From positions 1 to 38,985 of the forward strand of contig LGFT01000014.1 of assembly GCA_001509375.1 (NCBI GenBank): DNA of 38,985 nt, written 5' to 3'. Positions 20,968 through 30,014 of this stretch are shown piece after piece (position 1 is the stretch's first letter; each line of letters begins with the position of its first letter). The notes beneath the pieces were generated by a model. It was given only the letters and a program-made list of their open reading frames with translations. It did no database searches and was not told the origin of the DNA. Made by a program: the position numbers and the translations under genes. This DNA comes from Methanothrix harundinacea. GTDB taxonomy: Archaea > Halobacteriota > Methanosarcinia > Methanotrichales > Methanotrichaceae.

Positions 20968-21882
20968 ATGGATTCCCCGAAGAAGAGAAAACCTATCAAC
21001 CGCCGGATTCGAGAGCAGATCATCGAGTATTCTCTCTTCTTCACCGCCATCACCTCGATTTTGGTGATGGTCCTGATCTTCTTCTTTCTTATTCGCGAGA
21101 GCCTTGCAGCCTTCTCGGTGGTGGGGGTCTCAAGCCTCCTCTTCGGCATGAAATGGCACTCTGCCGGAAACACCTTCGGCATGGCCCCCATAATCGTGGG
21201 CTCCATCATGGTCACCCTCCTGGCCCTGGTCATAAACATCTTCGTGGGAGTTCCCCTGGCCATCTACCTCTCGGAGCTGGCAGGGCCCAGGGGCCGTTCG
21301 ATCTTGAAGCCGGCCATAGAGCTATTGGCCGGGGTTCCCTCCATCGTCTACGGCTTTCTCGGAGTTCTGATCCTGGTCGCCTACCTGGAAAAGAGCTTCG
21401 ATATGCTGACGGGAAGGTCGATCCTGGCGGGGGCGATCCTCCTGGGGATCATGTTCATCCCAGCCCTCACGACGATCTGCGAGGACGCCCTCCGGGCCGT
21501 CCCCAAGGAGTTCAAGGAGGGGTCTCTCGCCCTCGGAGCCACCCACTGGCAGACGGTCCGGCGGGTCACCCTCCCCGCCGCCTCCTCGGGGATCATCGCA
21601 GCCGTCGTCCTCAACGTCGGAAACATCATCGGGGAGACGATGGCCGCCCTCCTGGTGGTGGGCAACGTAGCCCGGCTGCCGTCGCCCATCTTCGACATCT
21701 TCGACCCGAGCGCCATCTTCACCTCGGTGATCGCCGGGGAGATGGGAGAGGTGCCCCACGGATCGATCCACTACCACGCCCTCTTCGCCGTCGGTTTCGT
21801 CCTCTTGGCGATCGTCACAGTCCTCAACATCTCGGCGGACCTGGTCAGGGATGCGATTCAAAAGAAGTTCGGGAGATACTGA
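20968..21882 (+). CDS. pstC: Phosphate ABC transporter permease PstC (copy 1)
   Basis: This 304-aa permease has six membrane segments. It carries the PstC pattern KWHSAGNTFGMAPIIVGSIM, ELLAGVPSIVYGFLGVLIL, and the EAA loop DALRAVPKEFKEGSLALGAT (about 170-190) that docks the PstB ATPase. It pairs with PstA to move phosphate delivered by PstS. No Shine-Dalgarno precedes the ATG, and a TATA-like box about 27 bp upstream suggests a leaderless message. Bases 21306-21882 are almost identical to copy 2 at a constant offset of 1050, while the 5' third is clearly diverged. Confidence 0.93.
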   Translation: MDSPKKRKPINRRIREQIIEYSLFFTAITSILVMVLIFFFLIRESLAAFSVVGVSSLLFGMKWHSAGNTFGMAPIIVGSIMVTLLALVINIFVGVPLAIYLSELAGPRGRSILKPAIELLAGVPSIVYGFLGVLILVAYLEKSFDMLTGRSILAGAILLGIMFIPALTTICEDALRAVPKEFKEGSLALGATHWQTVRRVTLPAASSGIIAAVVLNVGNIIGETMAALLVVGNVARLPSPIFDIFDPSAIFTSVIAGEMGEVPHGSIHYHALFAVGFVLLAIVTVLNISADLVRDAIQKKFGRY

Positions 21883-21937
21883 TCATCCCCTTCCAGCGAT
21901 CCCCTCATCATTCTTCGGCCTCGACCGAGGCACACCA

Positions 21938-21979
21938 GGTATATAGTTGTACCGGCTCTATATAGAGAATATAGATAAG
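21938..21979 (+). promoter_or_regulatory. Promoter/operator of second pstC
   Basis: A quasi-palindrome GGTATATAGTTGTACC (21938-21953) is followed by CTATATAGAGAATATAGATAAG (21958-21979), centred about 27 bp before ATG 21991. So copy 2 has its own TATA element, and the sequence resembles AT-rich motifs before pstC copy 1 and pstS. Confidence 0.5.
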
Positions 21980-21990
21980 TGCTTTAAGCG

Positions 21991-22932
21991 ATGAAAGAAC
22001 GCTCAGATGATGATATGGATCCTCCTGCCGAACGTGGTGTCCGCCCCCCTCCTCGATACGGCGACCGTTTCGTGGAGATGTTCCTGTTTTTTGCCGCCAT
22101 CGCCTCAATTTTGGTGATGCTTCTCATCTTCTACTTCCTCACCTACGAGAGCGTTCTCGCCTTTCGTGAAGTGGGGATCCTCGATATGATTCTGGGGCAG
22201 AAGTGGCATCCGGCGGGGGAGATCTTCGGGATGCTGCCGATCATCGTCGGCTCTGTCCTGATCACCTTCATCGCCCTATTCATAAACATCCTGGTGGGGA
22301 TACCCCTGGCGATATACCTCTCCGAGCTGGCGGGTCCCTGGTCCCGAGAATTGTTGAAGCCGGCCATAGAGCTATTGGCCGGGGTTCCCTCCATCGTCTA
22401 CGGCTTTCTCGGGGTTCTGGTCCTGGTGGTCTACCTCGAGAAGAGCTTCGATATGCTGACGGGAAGGTCGATCCTGGCGGGGGCGATCCTCCTGGGGATT
22501 ATGTTCATCCCCGCCCTTACGACGATCTGCGAGGACGCCCTCCGAGCCGTCCCCAAGGAGTTCAAGGAGGGATCTCTCGCCCTCGGAGCCACCCACTGGC
22601 AGACAGTCCGGCGGGTCACCCTTCCCGCCGCCTCATCGGGAATAATCGCCGCCGTGATCCTGAACGTTGGCAGGATCATCGGGGAGACGATGGCCGCCCT
22701 CCTGGTGGTGGGCAACGTAGCTCGGCTGCCGTCGCCCATCTTCGACGCCTTCGACAGGGGCGCCATCTTCACCTCGGTCATCGCCGGGGAGATGGGGGAG
22801 GTGGCCCACGGATCGATCCACTACCACGCCCTCTTCGCCGTCGGCTTCGTCCTCTTGGTGATCGTCACCGTCCTCAACATCTCGGCGGACCTGGTCAGGG
22901 ATGCGATTCAGAAGAAGTTCGGAGGATATTGA
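21991..22932 (+). CDS. pstC: Phosphate ABC transporter permease PstC (copy 2)
   Basis: This 313-aa paralogue of the preceding permease has the same membrane layout: KWHPAGEIFGMLPIIVGSVL, ELLAGVPSIVYGFLGVLVLV, and EAA loop DALRAVPKEFKEGSLALGAT. The N-terminal cytoplasmic tail (DPPAERGVRPPPRYG) is longer and different from copy 1. The 3' 577 bp match copy 1 almost base for base with no indels. pstA starts 1 base after the stop, so this copy is the direct partner of PstA in the operon; copy 1 may be an alternative or phosphate-graded version. Confidence 0.93.
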   Translation: MKERSDDDMDPPAERGVRPPPRYGDRFVEMFLFFAAIASILVMLLIFYFLTYESVLAFREVGILDMILGQKWHPAGEIFGMLPIIVGSVLITFIALFINILVGIPLAIYLSELAGPWSRELLKPAIELLAGVPSIVYGFLGVLVLVVYLEKSFDMLTGRSILAGAILLGIMFIPALTTICEDALRAVPKEFKEGSLALGATHWQTVRRVTLPAASSGIIAAVILNVGRIIGETMAALLVVGNVARLPSPIFDAFDRGAIFTSVIAGEMGEVAHGSIHYHALFAVGFVLLVIVTVLNISADLVRDAIQKKFGGY

Positions 22933-22933
22933 T

Positions 22934-24205
22934 ATGAAGAAGATCAAGCCGGCACCCCTGGCATCCATCGTCGTCGCTCTCTTTCTGCTCATCTCTTCTC
23001 TGTACTACCTGATAATCCAGATCGAAGAGATCTCCTTGCTGCCGTTCTGGGTGGGGGGACTCGTGGCATGCCTCGTCCTATTATCCGGCTCTGCCCTCGC
23101 CCTTCATCGAGACGCTGATGGGACCCACATCACCTGGACCAGGGGGAGGTTTCTGCCTCTGGCGGCGGATCTGATCTACCTTCTGGCGGTGTTTCTCCTG
23201 ATCTTCTATGGCTGGATAGGTCCCGACCTGGAGATCCAGCTTCTTGGGCTGAGCGCTACCTTCACCTACGATCTGGTCCTTCCCTTTCTGATCCTTCTCG
23301 CGAGCTTTCTTGTAATTAAGGACTCCATCAACCTCCTCTACGGCTACAGCACCAGGGGAAGGGAAGTTCTGGTATTCTCGATGGTCCGGCTCAGTGCGGT
23401 CTTCACCCTTCTGCTCTTGGGCGGCATAATCTCGGTGATCCTATTCCGGGGGATCGGAGCCATCAGCTGGGAGTTTCTCACCCAGCCCCACTTCCGGCTC
23501 GGCCAGCAAGGTGGGATCAGCACCTGCATCGAGGGGACCTTCTGGCTAGTGATGGGGGCGATGCTGATCTCAGCTCCCCTGGGGATCGGAGCTGCCATCT
23601 ACCTCAACGAGTACTCCAAGCATACAGGTCTGAAGCGCATAGTGACCATAGCCGTCGGCTGTCTCAATGGAGTGCCGTCGGTCGTCTACGGCCTCTTCGG
23701 CCTCGCCTTCCTGGTGGCTACCTTCGGCCTGTCGCTCCTCGCAGGGTCGATAATCCTGGGGCTTATGAACCTGCCCACCATCATCCTCACCAGCCAGGAA
23801 GCGCTCAAGAGCGTTCCAAACTCGCTGCGGGAGGGGAGCGTCGCCCTCGGAGCCACCAGGTGGCAGACGATCAGGAAGGTGGTGATCCCATCGGCCCTTC
23901 CGGGAGTCCTCACAGGTTTGATCATCGGGGTGGCGAGAGCTGCCGGAGAGACGGCACCCATCATGTGGACCGCTGTCACCTTCTCCGCAACCCCAGTTCA
24001 CATGTTCTACGGCGTCGTCCCCGACGTGACCCAGCCAGTAAACAACCTCTGTTACCACCTCCTCAACCTGATCTACTTCCTCGGGGCCTGGGACGTCGAG
24101 CAGAACGCATGGGGGACCGCCCTGGTCCTTTTGGCCCTGGTCCTATCCATCAACATGGTGGCGATCCTGGTCAGAAACCACTACCGAAAGAAGATATCAT
24201 GGTAA
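22934..24205 (+). CDS. pstA: Phosphate ABC transporter permease PstA, N-terminally extended
   Basis: This 423-aa protein is longer than usual PstA (about 280-300). The C-terminal part is standard: GTFWLVMGAMLISAPLGIGA, LNGVPSVVYGLFGLAFLV, EAA loop EALKSVPNSLREGSVALGAT and GETAPIMWTAVTF. The first 130 or so residues add about four more hydrophobic segments (SIVVALFLLISSLYYLI, LVACLVLLSGSALAL, LIYLLAVFLLIFYGW, LVLPFLILLASFLVI) of unknown role. GGAGGAT precedes ATG 22934. No pstB or phoU follows, so the ATPase must be encoded elsewhere. Confidence 0.92.
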   Translation: MKKIKPAPLASIVVALFLLISSLYYLIIQIEEISLLPFWVGGLVACLVLLSGSALALHRDADGTHITWTRGRFLPLAADLIYLLAVFLLIFYGWIGPDLEIQLLGLSATFTYDLVLPFLILLASFLVIKDSINLLYGYSTRGREVLVFSMVRLSAVFTLLLLGGIISVILFRGIGAISWEFLTQPHFRLGQQGGISTCIEGTFWLVMGAMLISAPLGIGAAIYLNEYSKHTGLKRIVTIAVGCLNGVPSVVYGLFGLAFLVATFGLSLLAGSIILGLMNLPTIILTSQEALKSVPNSLREGSVALGATRWQTIRKVVIPSALPGVLTGLIIGVARAAGETAPIMWTAVTFSATPVHMFYGVVPDVTQPVNNLCYHLLNLIYFLGAWDVEQNAWGTALVLLALVLSINMVAILVRNHYRKKISW

Positions 24206-25672: not shown

Positions 25673-26239
25673 TTGAGGAGAGATCCGGACCCAGATCGCC
25701 GGGTGGATCGGGGAGGGATGGTGGAGATCACCGAGAAGCCCTCCGTCGGGCGGAGGGCTGTCGCATCAGGCTTAATCCGCTTAGAAGAGTCCACTGTTGA
25801 GGCGATCAAAAACGGCGAGGTGGAAAAGGGGGATGTCCTCACCGTGGCGAGGGTGGCGGCGATCCAGGCGGTGAAGGAGACGCCAAGACAGATCCCCATG
25901 TGTCACCCGATACCGATCACAGGCGTCGAGGTGGCCTTCGAGCTTTTGCCCGACCGGATCAGGGCGACGGTCGCCGTCACCTCCGTCGGAAAGACCGGCG
26001 TCGAGATGGAGGCGCTCTCCGGGGTCTCGGCGGCGCTCCTCAACGTATGGGACATGGTCAAGTCCCGGGAGAAAGACGAGACAGGAAACTACCCGACGAC
26101 GGTGGTCGATGAGATCCGGGTGGTGGAGAAGAGGAAGGGGAAGGCTGGAGAATCGTTTTGTCCCGGATCGTCCTCCTCTTCGAACGGGGATCCCAATGGT
26201 GGGCATCGGCGGGCCAATGACGGAAGCTCTCGCAGGTGA
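25673..26239 (+). CDS. moaC: Cyclic pyranopterin monophosphate synthase MoaC, with extra C-terminal tail
   Basis: MoaC converts the MoaA product to cPMP in molybdopterin synthesis, needed in methanogens for formylmethanofuran dehydrogenase. Signatures are KPSVGRRAVASGLI, QIPMCHPIPITGVEVAFEL, GVEMEALSGVSAALLNVWDM and KSREKDE, with all active-site residues visible. Normal proteins end near IRVVEKRKG. Here about 35 more residues follow, rich in S, G, N and R, resembling read-through of intergenic DNA after loss of a stop. The frame opens at 25637. TTG 25673 leaves the shortest plausible leader; ATG 25718 is also possible. Confidence 0.9.
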   Translation: MRRDPDPDRRVDRGGMVEITEKPSVGRRAVASGLIRLEESTVEAIKNGEVEKGDVLTVARVAAIQAVKETPRQIPMCHPIPITGVEVAFELLPDRIRATVAVTSVGKTGVEMEALSGVSAALLNVWDMVKSREKDETGNYPTTVVDEIRVVEKRKGKAGESFCPGSSSSSNGDPNGGHRRANDGSSRR

Positions 26240-26406
26240 TATTAGAAATATAGATTATATGAAATAGATAATTATTTATAGAACCCATTCCAAAACATGA
26301 CTCTGATCAGCCGTTGAAGTCCGCTTCCACTTCAGATCTATCTATTGTTTGATGGGCGAACGGGATGGACGAGATCAAGCCGGAGAACTAGAACAGGAGG
26401 ATCGTT

Positions 26407-26541
26407 ATGGTGAGAGTCGAGTTGCTTAAGGATGTAGAAGGTCTTGGTAAGAAGGGTGATCGAGTATCAGATGTGCCACCCGCACAGGCAGAAGAGCTGA
26501 TAAAAGCGGGCAAGGCCAAAGATCTCGGAATTAAGAAGTAG
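26407..26541 (+). CDS. 44-aa microprotein resembling the N-domain of ribosomal protein bL9
   Basis: ATG 26407, 6 bases after AGGAGG, opens a 44-codon ORF that is short enough to escape most gene callers. It reads MVRVELLKDVEGLGKKGDRV, then SDVPPAQAEELIKAGKAKDL and GIKK. The first 20 residues match the bL9 N-terminal signature (V.LL.DV.GLGKKGD.V). bL9 is a bacterial large-subunit protein absent from archaeal ribosomes. The second half is not bL9-like. It lies 25 bases before the DUF4332 gene, so the two probably form one operon. Function is unknown. Confidence 0.8.
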   Translation: MVRVELLKDVEGLGKKGDRVSDVPPAQAEELIKAGKAKDLGIKK

Positions 26542-26566
26542 CGCTCAAAGCCACAAGGAGTATTAG

Positions 26567-26980
26567 GTGGTTTTATTGACAAACATATTGAATATCCAGG
26601 GGATTGAACCGACGTATGCCGAGTCCCTCGCCACCGCCGGGATCAACTCAATCGAGAAGCTCCTCGAATCCGGCTCAAGCAAGAACGGTCGGACTGGGAT
26701 CTCTCAAAGCACTGGGATCTCGGAGAAGCTCATATTGGAGTGGGTGAACCGGGCGGACCTCACCAGGGTGAAGGGCATAGGGGAGAAGTACTCAGATCTC
26801 TTGGAGGTGGCTGGAGTTGACACCGTGGTGGAACTCTCCAAGAGGGTTCCTGAGAACCTCCATGCAAAGATGGTGGAGGTGAACGAGGCCAATAAGCGTG
26901 TAACGAGGAATCCAACCCTCTCCGAGGTGAAATCTTGGATAGAACAGGCTAAGGAGCTTCCCAGGATGATCCAGTACTAA
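26567..26980 (+). CDS. DUF4332 helix-hairpin-helix protein
   Basis: This 137-aa protein has two tandem helix-hairpin-helix-like units: NIQGIEPTYAESLATAGINS (residues 9-28) and RVKGIGEKYSDLLEVAGVDT (around 66-85). They are followed by LSKRVPENLHAKMVEVNEAN, the characteristic DUF4332 ending. HhH units usually bind DNA or RNA backbone without sequence specificity; no catalytic domain is present. GTG 26567 has AAGGAG 6 bases upstream. It sits behind the bL9-N-like microprotein and ends at a T-tract terminator. Confidence 0.88.
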   Translation: MVLLTNILNIQGIEPTYAESLATAGINSIEKLLESGSSKNGRTGISQSTGISEKLILEWVNRADLTRVKGIGEKYSDLLEVAGVDTVVELSKRVPENLHAKMVEVNEANKRVTRNPTLSEVKSWIEQAKELPRMIQY

Positions 26981-26985
26981 AAAGA

Positions 26986-27002
26986 TTTTTTTACTCATTT
27001 TT
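26986..27002 (+). terminator. T-tract terminator
   Basis: Two T-runs (26986-26992 and 26998-27002) directly follow the DUF4332 stop codon, with no hairpin. This is the normal archaeal intrinsic terminator pattern. Confidence 0.6.
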
Positions 27003-27139
27003 AATATTGAATTCTCTCCAGCGCGATTATTTATCAATGGGATTACTGATGAATCCGAATGATATGATCTCGTGTATGTAATGATCCGCCTAAATCTGAG
27101 GGATTAAGATCAAACCAACGACATGAGATTCCATTGCCG

Positions 27140-27205
27140 ATGGTGAAGGGCATGAGTCGACCGTCGCATGGTCGCAGATCGAATATCCAGGTGAAGAGAC
27201 AATGA
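27140..27205 (+). CDS. Possible 21-aa leader peptide
   Basis: An ATG at 27140 opens 21 basic codons (MVKGMSRPSHGRRSNIQVKR, then Q) whose TGA overlaps the next gene's ATG as ATGA. The overlap suggests a coupled leader, but there is no good ribosome-binding site and the size is within chance. Confidence 0.25.
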   Translation: MVKGMSRPSHGRRSNIQVKRQ

Positions 27206-27405
27206 GTCCGAAGTCGATCCTGAATAAAGGCTTAATTGCAATCTACGGAGTGATGCTGCTGATCGGCTTTTTATTGATTTTTATTCTGCCACCGATAGGA
27301 TTCGTGATAGTACTTCTATCTGCCGTCCTCCTGGTTATCTATGCCGTATTCTCTGGTCGGAGAGAGGGGACGAGCTCAAAGCCGGAGAGGAGAAAGGAGA
27401 GATAA
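27202..27405 (+). CDS. Small two-helix membrane protein
   Basis: This 67-aa protein has two hydrophobic segments, IAIYGVMLLIGFLLIFIL and GFVIVLLSAVLLVIYAVF, joined by PPI, and a basic tail (GRREGTSSKPERRKER) that should face the cytoplasm. AGGTGAAG lies 8-11 bases before the ATG. I do not recognise a family. It sits alone between the DUF4332 unit and IS remnants. Confidence 0.65.
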   Translation: MSPKSILNKGLIAIYGVMLLIGFLLIFILPPIGFVIVLLSAVLLVIYAVFSGRREGTSSKPERRKER

Positions 27406-27929: not shown

Positions 27930-28793
27930 TCAGCGGACGGGGACGAACCCAGACTCCGCCACGATAATCTGCCCCTCATCGCTCAGAACAAACTCGATGA
28001 ACTCTTTGGCTCCGGGGCTAGGATCGCCGAAGGTGTAGAGGTTGAGGGCCCTCGAGAGCGGGTATGTGCCGTCCTTTATCGTCTCCGCGAAGGGCATGGC
28101 CCCATCGTAGTCTACAGCTCGAAGGGCGCCGCCCTCGACGTAGTTCATGCCGACGTACCCGATCGCCTTATCGCTGTTCGTCACTGCGGTCTTCACCTCG
28201 GCGTTGCTGCCATGGTAGGTGGTGACCCCCGGGGTCTCGGCCTCGATGCTCCCCATCACCATCTCGTTGAAGGTGTCTCGGGTGCCGGAGCCAACCTCTC
28301 TAGCCACCACGTAGATCCTCTCGTCGGGACCGCCTACGTCCATCCAGTTGGCGACTTCGCCGCTGTAGATGGCTGCCACCTCGTCTTGAGAGAGGTCTGT
28401 TACTCCTGCCTCGTAGATCGGCTGGCTCACCACCACGGCGATGGCATCATAGGCCACCAGAAACTCTTCGAAGCTGTCGCCGTAGGTGGCGATCTCGTCC
28501 GGCTTCACCTGCCGCGAGGCCATGGCGATCTCCGCGAGCCCCTGGGCGACGTTCTTGATCCCGACGCCAGACCCTCCGCCGGTGACGGAGGCGCGGACCC
28601 CATTCTGGATTTGGTTGAACTCCTCTGCAGAGGCCTCCACCAGAGGCATCACCGTGGTGGACCCGGCGACGGTGATGGCGGCAGCCTCAGTGGCGGGCTC
28701 CGTCTCTCTCTCCTCGTCAATGCATCCTGAGAAGGATAGGATCGACGCGATCACCAGGATGGCTGTCAAAAAGGAAGTTGAAGGTCTATTCAT
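27930..28793 (-). CDS. pstS: Phosphate-binding lipoprotein PstS
   Basis: This protein of about 287 aa binds phosphate outside the cell and feeds the Pst permease. It has a lipoprotein signal (AILVIASILSFSGC), so it would be anchored through that cysteine. The mature part opens with ITVAGSTTVMPLVEASAEEF, followed by GGGSGVGIKNVAQGLAEIAM and VAREVGSGTRDTFNEMVMG, the phosphate-contacting loops of PstS. The frame opens at 28832, but the ATG at 28793 follows GGGGGGTG and starts at the signal peptide. It is on the opposite strand, 3.7 kb from pstA, with unrelated genes between. Confidence 0.94.
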   Translation of the reverse strand: MNRPSTSFLTAILVIASILSFSGCIDEERETEPATEAAAITVAGSTTVMPLVEASAEEFNQIQNGVRASVTGGGSGVGIKNVAQGLAEIAMASRQVKPDEIATYGDSFEEFLVAYDAIAVVVSQPIYEAGVTDLSQDEVAAIYSGEVANWMDVGGPDERIYVVAREVGSGTRDTFNEMVMGSIEAETPGVTTYHGSNAEVKTAVTNSDKAIGYVGMNYVEGGALRAVDYDGAMPFAETIKDGTYPLSRALNLYTFGDPSPGAKEFIEFVLSDEGQIIVAESGFVPVR

Positions 28794-28876
28794 CACCCCC
28801 CCCTTACAGGTATCTATTATAAAATTTATCACAATAGGATAAATAGATGGCCTTACCCCAAAATACTGGCTATATA

Positions 28877-28894
28877 GGAATATATTCTATATAT
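28877..28894 (-). promoter_or_regulatory. AT-rich motif upstream of pstS
   Basis: On the minus strand this reads ATATATAGAATATATTCC, closely matching GTATATAGAATATTTATC upstream of the first pstC. It lies 84-101 bp before the pstS start and overlaps the cdc6 stop codon. A separate AT-rich stretch nearer the gene can serve as TATA box, so this copy may be an operator. Confidence 0.45.
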
Positions 28895-30014
28895 TTTCCT
28901 TTGGCCTGATCCTATCCAGCACCTCTTTTGGATCGTACCTGATGCGGACGACCCTGGACCTGCCCCGGTGGCCCGGCCCGCTGAAGTCGGTATCGATCAG
29001 CCTTGCAGCGTCTAGCTTGTTCAAAATCTCGTGGAACCGGGTGTACCCCGAGCCGGTGGCATCTTTGAACCTTTCGTAGAGGTCCCCGGCCTTTGAGGTC
29101 TCCATCTCCGCTGCGAGGCCCAGGAGGAGGAGCTCGTCCTCCCGGAGGGGCTTCAGGGCGCTCGAGAGGTGGACGAGCCTCGACCTCTCGTATGCCCGGT
29201 CGACGTCTTCCTTCGATATGATCCGGGAGGCCCTCCTCTCTGCCTCCATCCCCGCCCTCTTGAGAAGGTCGATCCCGACCCGGAGGTCCCCGGCCCGCTC
29301 GGTGAGGTCTGAGACCAGATCGATGATCTCCCCTGAGGCGACGCCGGGATAAAAGCCGAGATGGACCCGGCGGCCCAGGATGTCTCTTATCTCCTCGATG
29401 GAGTATAGAGGGAAGCTGACCTCCTCTGCCTGGAAGACCGACCCGACCCGAGGATCGAAGATGTAGCTGAGGGCTGGCTCGCTGAGGATGGCGATCACCC
29501 CGGCCCTGAACCCCGGGAAGGTCTCGTGGGCCCGAAGGAGGGTGTAGAGTACCCGGTCTACCTCCCTCTCGGGGAATAGGTAGTTGACGTCGTCGAGGGC
29601 CACCACAATGACCCGGTTCTCCGTCGTCATCGCCTTTGCGATCCGCTCGAGGACCCTTTTGAAGGAGACGCCGCTTGTGGGAGGCGAGTGGCCCAGAAGC
29701 TTGCTATAGATCCGGAGGAATATGGCGTGTCTCGTGTGGTCTATCTGGCAGTTGACGTGGACCGGGATCACCTTCGTGGAGTGGGCCTCGATTTCGGTGA
29801 AGAGCTTGACGACCGCCGTCGTCTTCCCGGTGCCCGGAGGGCCGAGACAGAGGGCGTTTACAGGGCGGCCTCCCGCGAAGACGGGCTTTACGCAGAACTT
29901 GAGGGACTCCATCTGGGGCTCGCGGTGAGCGAAGTGCTCGGGAAGGTGGTCAAACTCCAGGACCTCCCGGTCCTTGAAGATCGTCTCGTCCCAGAGGAGC
30001 ATCTCCCGTTTCAT
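28887..30014 (-). CDS. cdc6: Orc1/Cdc6-family replication initiator
   Basis: This 375-aa AAA+ ATPase binds origin DNA and helps load MCM. Walker A is GPPGTGKT (58-65), Walker B is VVALDDVNYLF (about 137-147), and the sensor/lid region ends in TERAGDLRVGIDLLKRAG, the characteristic Cdc6 sensor-2 segment. The C-terminal 80 residues form a winged helix (GDLYERFKDATGSGYTRFHE) for DNA contact. GGAGG lies 8-12 bases before the ATG and a TATA box is centred 27 bp upstream. I saw no clear origin-recognition-box repeats on either side. Confidence 0.94.
   Translation of the reverse strand: MKREMLLWDETIFKDREVLEFDHLPEHFAHREPQMESLKFCVKPVFAGGRPVNALCLGPPGTGKTTAVVKLFTEIEAHSTKVIPVHVNCQIDHTRHAIFLRIYSKLLGHSPPTSGVSFKRVLERIAKAMTTENRVIVVALDDVNYLFPEREVDRVLYTLLRAHETFPGFRAGVIAILSEPALSYIFDPRVGSVFQAEEVSFPLYSIEEIRDILGRRVHLGFYPGVASGEIIDLVSDLTERAGDLRVGIDLLKRAGMEAERRASRIISKEDVDRAYERSRLVHLSSALKPLREDELLLLGLAAEMETSKAGDLYERFKDATGSGYTRFHEILNKLDAARLIDTDFSGPGHRGRSRVVRIRYDPKEVLDRIRPKENI

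Follow-up and report, generated by a model that had tools for sequence, protein, structure and literature searches.

ORF44, a lineage-restricted microprotein gene of Methanothrix with an L9-N-like predicted fold

A short open reading frame of 44 codons (ORF44) in Methanothrix harundinacea is a genuine coding gene held under purifying selection that is strong for such a short frame, and its distribution is restricted and patchy. On balance, we lean towards reading it as a lineage-restricted accessory gene, which probably has its own promoter and encodes a small folded domain, and which is neither bL9 nor an obligate partner of the DUF4332 gene next to it.

The window, i.e. the whole stretch of DNA analysed here, comprises 38,985 nt of assembly GCA_001509375.1 (contig LGFT01000014.1, positions 1-38,985 of the forward strand). 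The source genome (G000) amounts to 2.38 Mb in 118 contigs with a completeness of 97.5% and carries ORF44 as a single copy. For close comparison, nine genomes of one Methanothrix-like genus were used (G000-G008). The features under discussion are:

26264..26282, + strand: putative TATA-like promoter element ATAGATAATTATTTATAGA (19 bp), found with the ORF44 unit
26283..26406, + strand: 5' leader, moderately conserved (pairwise identity, four genomes)
26395..26400, + strand: Shine-Dalgarno motif AGGAGG as read from the sequence, six bases 5' of the ORF44 ATG
26407..26541, + strand: ORF44, microprotein of 44 aa with an L9-N-like predicted fold, ATG start
26567..26980, + strand: DUF4332 protein with helix-hairpin-helix motifs, 137 aa, GTG start; a loosely linked neighbour

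ORF44 is a coding gene confined to part of one genus

Proteins of fewer than 50 residues are easily overlooked by gene callers. A preliminary description of this DNA had pointed out a 44-aa frame behind an AGGAGG, and both were recovered, at 26407-26541 and 26395-26400, respectively. AGGAGG also precedes the ORF44 copies of three further genomes (G004, G005 and G006). All six pairs among these four genomes gave dN/dS values of 0.064-0.176 (rough for the pairs with G005, where dS exceeds 1.1), which is why we consider the frame coding. The copies, all from draft assemblies and four in number only, are 84-95% identical to the window protein, and residues 28-41 are invariant in 4/4.

In a search of 60 genomes including the source genome, five matched ORF44 at E ≤ 0.1: G000, G004, G005 and G006, all from a single genus and all at E ≤ 3.6e-19, and a marginal fifth (G027, E 0.083) with an internal stop. 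A profile built from the four sequences matched 16/236 genomes of the class at E ≤ 0.1, with E ≤ 1e-29 reached only in the four carriers; the other 12 matches lie at E 0.02-0.09, and the weak ones with a readable frame sit within other proteins (L021, L023, L024, L026, L027 and L029 left out). Within the phylum sample, 3/392 matched at E ≤ 0.01, namely the source genome and two marginal cases (E 0.006 and 0.008), one of which falls in a long frame. The frames at L094, L097, L098 and L115 were likewise set aside. A pattern scan of genome_contigs yielded at least three relatives, and the plasmids searched gave no match at E ≤ 1. The confident family comprises 4/9 genomes of the genus, with no confident member elsewhere among the 236 class genomes. 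Conservation, by which the preliminary description would have had the frame judged, is thus borne out by purifying selection in four genomes and limited by their being less than half of one genus. In a protein tree of the nine genomes (unrooted; built on four genes, of which G000 and G008 lack one), the carriers are scattered over several branches, and therefore losses, transfers or both must have occurred.

A promoter-like element accompanies every copy

The DNA aligned between the four genomes is conserved from the TATA-like block through the leader to ORF44. Pairwise identity amounts to 68-86% in the TATA block, 54-76% in the leader (26286-26406) and 78-93% in ORF44, and to 29-61% upstream of the element (26207-26257). 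Past the ORF44 stop codon, conservation falls in 5/6 pairs, where the 3' flank shows 25-41% identity; the pair G000-G004 retains 88%. In G005 and G006, the stop is followed by CCCTTTTTTT, a T-run that, from its sequence, may serve as a terminator.

Allowing up to two mismatches, ATAGATAATTATTTATAGA was found beside ORF44 in 4/4 carriers, in a relic in G001 and at one further site (G006:C20), with no match in the remaining 4/9 genus genomes and 0 for a backwards-pattern control. Scanning the window with up to three mismatches returned this single site, compared with 0 in 100 shuffles. The 19-bp element is probably the promoter of ORF44, which would make the gene its own independent transcription unit. 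A role of the element as operator of many genes was rejected, as the nine genomes hold it only at the ORF44 unit, at the G001 relic and at one other site.

The relic in G001 consists of the element and much of the leader, kept 3' of moaC with 74% identity over query bases 1-135. Then comes a relative of the 67-aa membrane ORF known from the window; the locus has neither ORF44 nor DUF4332, and no relative of either was found anywhere in the G001 genome. The gene names moaC, nnrD, trpS and mscL are those we presume for the sequences in these loci.

We also rejected the leader as a structured RNA, given that neither its fold z-score (+1.21) nor covariation nor Rfam lends support: RNAalifold reported an unfavourable covariation term (+0.68) with double changes at 2/22 pairs, and none of four Rfam matches at E ≤ 10 reached the gathering score.

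ORF44 and DUF4332 are loosely linked

The helix-hairpin-helix protein described 25 bases downstream of ORF44 was readily verified. The gap between the frames is 25 bases, AAGGAG (26555-26560) lies 5' of the GTG, and the DUF4332 family (PF14229) matches with 135.3 bits against a cut-off of 23.2 (E 1.6e-39, model positions 2-122 of 122), alongside HHH_5 at E 3.9e-10. The predicted model is all-helical (pLDDT 81.8). Foldseek listed 133 matches for it at E ≤ 10 and none at 0.001; the weak ones include Pol-theta helicase and RadA (best E 0.28). The model is compatible with DNA binding but is no evidence of it.

The preliminary description further took the two genes to be coupled. In its strongest form, this would make them a two-gene functional unit, with ORF44 as a small regulator or cofactor of the nucleic-acid-binding protein, which we judge improbable but not far-fetched. 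The 25-bp spacing recurs in G004, and close DUF4332 relatives (E ≤ 1e-5) occur in just 4/60 genomes. Three of these (G000, G004 and G006) are ORF44 carriers, of which the genus has four, and no other genome of the genus has such a relative; the fourth, G015, lies outside the genus. Both genes are missing from G001. Moreover, the G000-G004 dS values for DUF4332 (0.20) and ORF44 (0.32 over 44 codons) are lower than those for Gins51 (0.44), moaC (0.55) and nnrD (0.65), as if the two genes had moved jointly, which suggests a recent joint exchange.

However, the coupling does not hold across the family. ORF44 lies directly 5' of DUF4332 in 2/4 carriers (G000 and G004), which corresponds to 2/3 of the genomes with both genes and falls short of the conserved adjacency of a two-gene operon. 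In G006, the two lie 4.2 kb from each other, and ORF44 is succeeded by the T-run. G005 yielded no close relative of DUF4332, an absence that may be a gap in an assembly 81% complete; its ORF44 unit shares a contig of 3.2 kb with a caspase-domain gene. Conversely, G015, whose DUF4332 relative is the nearest one beyond the genus, has no ORF44. The DUF4332 profile itself is widespread, matching 116/236 class genomes at E ≤ 0.001 (68 above the cut-off, many within larger frames), with only weak matches below the cut-off in G005 and G001. The promoter-like element, present with every ORF44 copy and in the relic, stays with ORF44 rather than with the pair, so that ORF44 is probably an independent unit. 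The tight spacing in G000 and G004 and the lack of both genes in G001 still fit a two-gene operon there, and a functional link to DUF4332 is possible.

ORF44 resembles the bL9 N-domain but is not bL9

The bL9 N-terminal signature noted earlier is real at the level of Pfam: Ribosomal_L9_N (PF01281) matches residues 3-38 with 26 bits (cut-off 20.7, E 6.9e-6), all 4/4 family members match at E ≤ 1, and one reversed plus nine shuffled copies gave 0/10 matches. When whole genomes were scanned with the same model, the copies in G000 (24.1 bits) and G004 (23) exceeded the cut-off and that of G006 (19.4) stayed below it, while the G005 copy reached it only with its neighbours in frame (20.2, 20.7). 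NCBIfam gave no match to ORF44 at E ≤ 10.

Among solved structures compared by sequence, acetylglutamate kinase ranked ahead of L9, both with the single sequence (E 6.2e-4 vs 0.13) and with the four-row profile (0.001 vs 0.0028). Two of the weak class matches (L020 and L022) presumably represent the same type of enzyme. A kinase source of ORF44 was rejected, because Pfam and NCBIfam report no kinase family; for the same reason, the match is treated as convergence of a short strand-loop-helix, and it cautions against making too much of the L9 similarity.

Closer comparison with bL9 exposed clear differences. We take the conserved GYxxNFL-type helix stretch to be the bL9 motif. None of the four ORF44 copies contains such a stretch; in the phmmer alignment (a weak match, E 0.13), GYANNFL of NTL9 faces AQAEE-gap-L of ORF44. 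The C-terminal domain PF03948 is likewise lacking, as ORF44 ends at residue 44 and gives no match. A complete bacterial-type bL9 with both domains, PF03948 included, was encountered at L010 1501-1947 in G225, an assembly from the same family with a completeness of 66%; it carries GFAVNYL at the motif position. Being complete with its C-domain in so incomplete an assembly, it is probably bacterial contamination. No plausible native bL9 was found in 237 class genomes, which agrees with the earlier statement that archaeal ribosomes lack one. Aligned to this true bL9, ORF44 matched over residues 3-21 only (probability 13.5%, E 0.0021). Net charges of +2 (ORF44) and +1 (46-residue bL9 segment) are too similar to discriminate between the two.

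The preliminary description had raised the idea of an rRNA- or DNA-binding helper. ORF44 as a truncated, repurposed bacterial bL9 N-domain, still binding rRNA or mRNA, perhaps its own leader, seems quite unlikely to us. The profile match, the fold similarity described below and the moderate conservation of the leader would fit it, but ORF44 has neither the GYANNFL stretch nor the C-domain, which weakens the rRNA-binding idea, and the leader, which has no supported structure, has diverged in G001, where ORF44 is absent. Identity as bL9 fails, and the L9-N-like predicted fold stands.

Predicted fold of ORF44

Using the four-row alignment, the best AlphaFold model (pLDDT 89.2, pTM 0.58) shows a beta-beta-alpha-beta arrangement with strands at 2-6, 19-23 and 37-42 and a helix at 25-33; of five models, two reached this quality and three had pLDDT 62, 50 and 49. 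Foldseek against the PDB library returned 173 chains at E ≤ 10 and none at 0.001, and the best 50 of these 173 are ribosome entries or isolated L9 N-domains throughout, headed by a bL9 N-domain (TM 0.75, 0.8 Å, 37 columns). VIA-align, for which a Z below 8 may reflect a mere common arrangement, likewise placed bL9 N-domains at the top (Z 7.3, rmsd 1.0 Å, 39 residues). The structure prediction proposed in the preliminary description thus came out in favour of the resemblance, and the ORF44 fold is probably similar to that of the N-terminal domain of bL9. This fold is common to other families, and therefore no function is assigned by it.

Viral proteins are among these families. In the viral fold library, 382 matches were obtained at E ≤ 10 and 0 at 0.001; in the best 50 of 382, TM values reach 0.80, and those with names are in nearly every case uncharacterised proteins of phages or viruses. 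VIA-align also lists the C-domain of the phage protein gpFI (Z 4.8). Together with the patchy spread and the Pfam family DUF7210 (PF23843), matched by 4/4 members at E ≤ 1 (best E 3.9e-5), this might point to a small phage protein, of DUF7210 or a similar type, that has been domesticated. We regard such an origin as very unlikely: the window protein scores 21.8 bits, below the cut-off of 27, and is covered at residues 15-37 only (model 17-38 of 38); 0/211 pattern matches in viral_contigs were confirmed as relatives; 50,697 phage records yielded one marginal tblastn match (E 7); and no phage genes were identified beside ORF44. Elsewhere in the class, a 68-aa DUF7210-like ORF (18.8 bits, below the cut-off) was seen at L107 1459-1662.

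Further VIA-align matches are 5ghr_B (Z 5.8, 42 residues) and 3anw_A (Z 5.6), both titled as archaeal DNA replication proteins and presumably GINS, and the GINS tetramer 9moj_A (Z 4.9). That ORF44 is a stand-alone GINS B-domain-like module in replication is scarcely credible despite these matches and an Orc1/Cdc6 gene about 2 kb further on in the window, as identity is 17-20%, an ordinary Gins51 is encoded elsewhere in 9/9 genomes, the B-domains bear an extra two-stranded hairpin for which ORF44 is short (PMC2861644), and Gins51_C (PF22090) gave no ORF44 match at E ≤ 10, although that model is insensitive (18.9-25 bits for the Gins51 proteins of the genus, 0/9 over 27).

Genomic surroundings

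The stretch from moaC to the convergent trpS (26240-27201; syntenic loci L055-L060, L015 and L018) is a variable slot in the genus. It holds membrane-protein-like ORFs, judged by eye, in G002, G003 and G007, and mscL-like and other genes in G006. In G005, it amounts to about 140-160 bp without ORF44, on another contig than the ORF44 unit. G008 shows glycosyltransferase-like ORFs after moaC and no trpS match in the stretch examined.

Downstream in the window, a 67-aa membrane miniprotein (27202-27405), whose G001 relative is 84% identical over 56 residues, weakly resembles a holin family below the cut-off (E 0.0089). The Orc1/Cdc6-type initiator gene at 28887-30014 (- strand), with Cdc6 lid and winged-helix domains, lies about 2 kb from DUF4332. 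Phosphate-type transporter genes occupy 20968-24205 and 27930-28832, and the opposite strand encodes a PBP-like solute-binding protein; we presume that the region contains two similar permease ORFs in tandem and a third permease. A PADLOC search for defence genes gave no match at E ≤ 1.

Discussion

If ORF44 is the accessory gene that we favour, it would make up a transcription unit of its own, driven by its own promoter, and would encode one small folded domain of beta-beta-alpha-beta type, similar to L9-N. We tentatively picture it as a small binding module, in which the fixed helix and last strand (residues 28-41) might dock onto one partner. With low confidence, a protein partner would be somewhat likelier than RNA, since E29-E30 lie opposite the two asparagines in GYANNFL of bL9.

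Several known proteins resemble ORF44 in part. The bL9 N-domain (PF01281) shares sequence over residues 3-38 and provides the nearest solved fold, but bL9 has the C-domain and the GYANNFL stretch, whereas ORF44 is archaeal and patchy within one genus. DUF7210 and small phage proteins resemble it at residues 15-37 and in predicted folds; in contrast, ORF44 stays below the cut-off of that family, its N-terminal 14 residues are uncovered and no phage context was seen. A Mycobacterium phage 32HC protein also has an L9_N-type domain without the bL9 C-domain (PMC6375957), but it is 86 aa long and keeps part of the spacer helix, with no close relation to ORF44 apparent. The archaeal GINS B-domain and the PriS C-terminal domain, related in fold (PMC2861644), likewise place a three-stranded sheet against one helix (Z 4.9-5.8); they differ in their extra beta hairpin and in being parts of larger proteins, and ORF44 has no Pfam match to them. 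A review treats bL9 as bacteria-specific, with extra-ribosomal mRNA binding reported on the exsA 5'UTR (PMC10931766), and a survey of ribosomal protein folds lists the bL9 fold as bacteria-specific (PMC11354259). Among the literature matches listed, none concerned an archaeal L9_N microprotein, DUF7210 was not mentioned and DUF4332 appeared only as a gene-map label.

In a more speculative and rather doubtful scenario, an L9-N-type domain of bacterial or viral origin might have been captured by an archaeal lineage, its rRNA-contact helix swapped for a docking helix. As a microprotein, it might then regulate translation or replication, and it might have spread between related methanogens as a promoter-plus-gene cassette.

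With strong selection, a near-private promoter-like element and a recognisable predicted fold in one gene, ORF44 is well suited as a test case of microprotein function in methanogens. Should it act on ribosomes, an archaeon would be using a fold that PMC11354259 lists as bacteria-specific; if it acts otherwise, it would be an example of minimal fold reuse.
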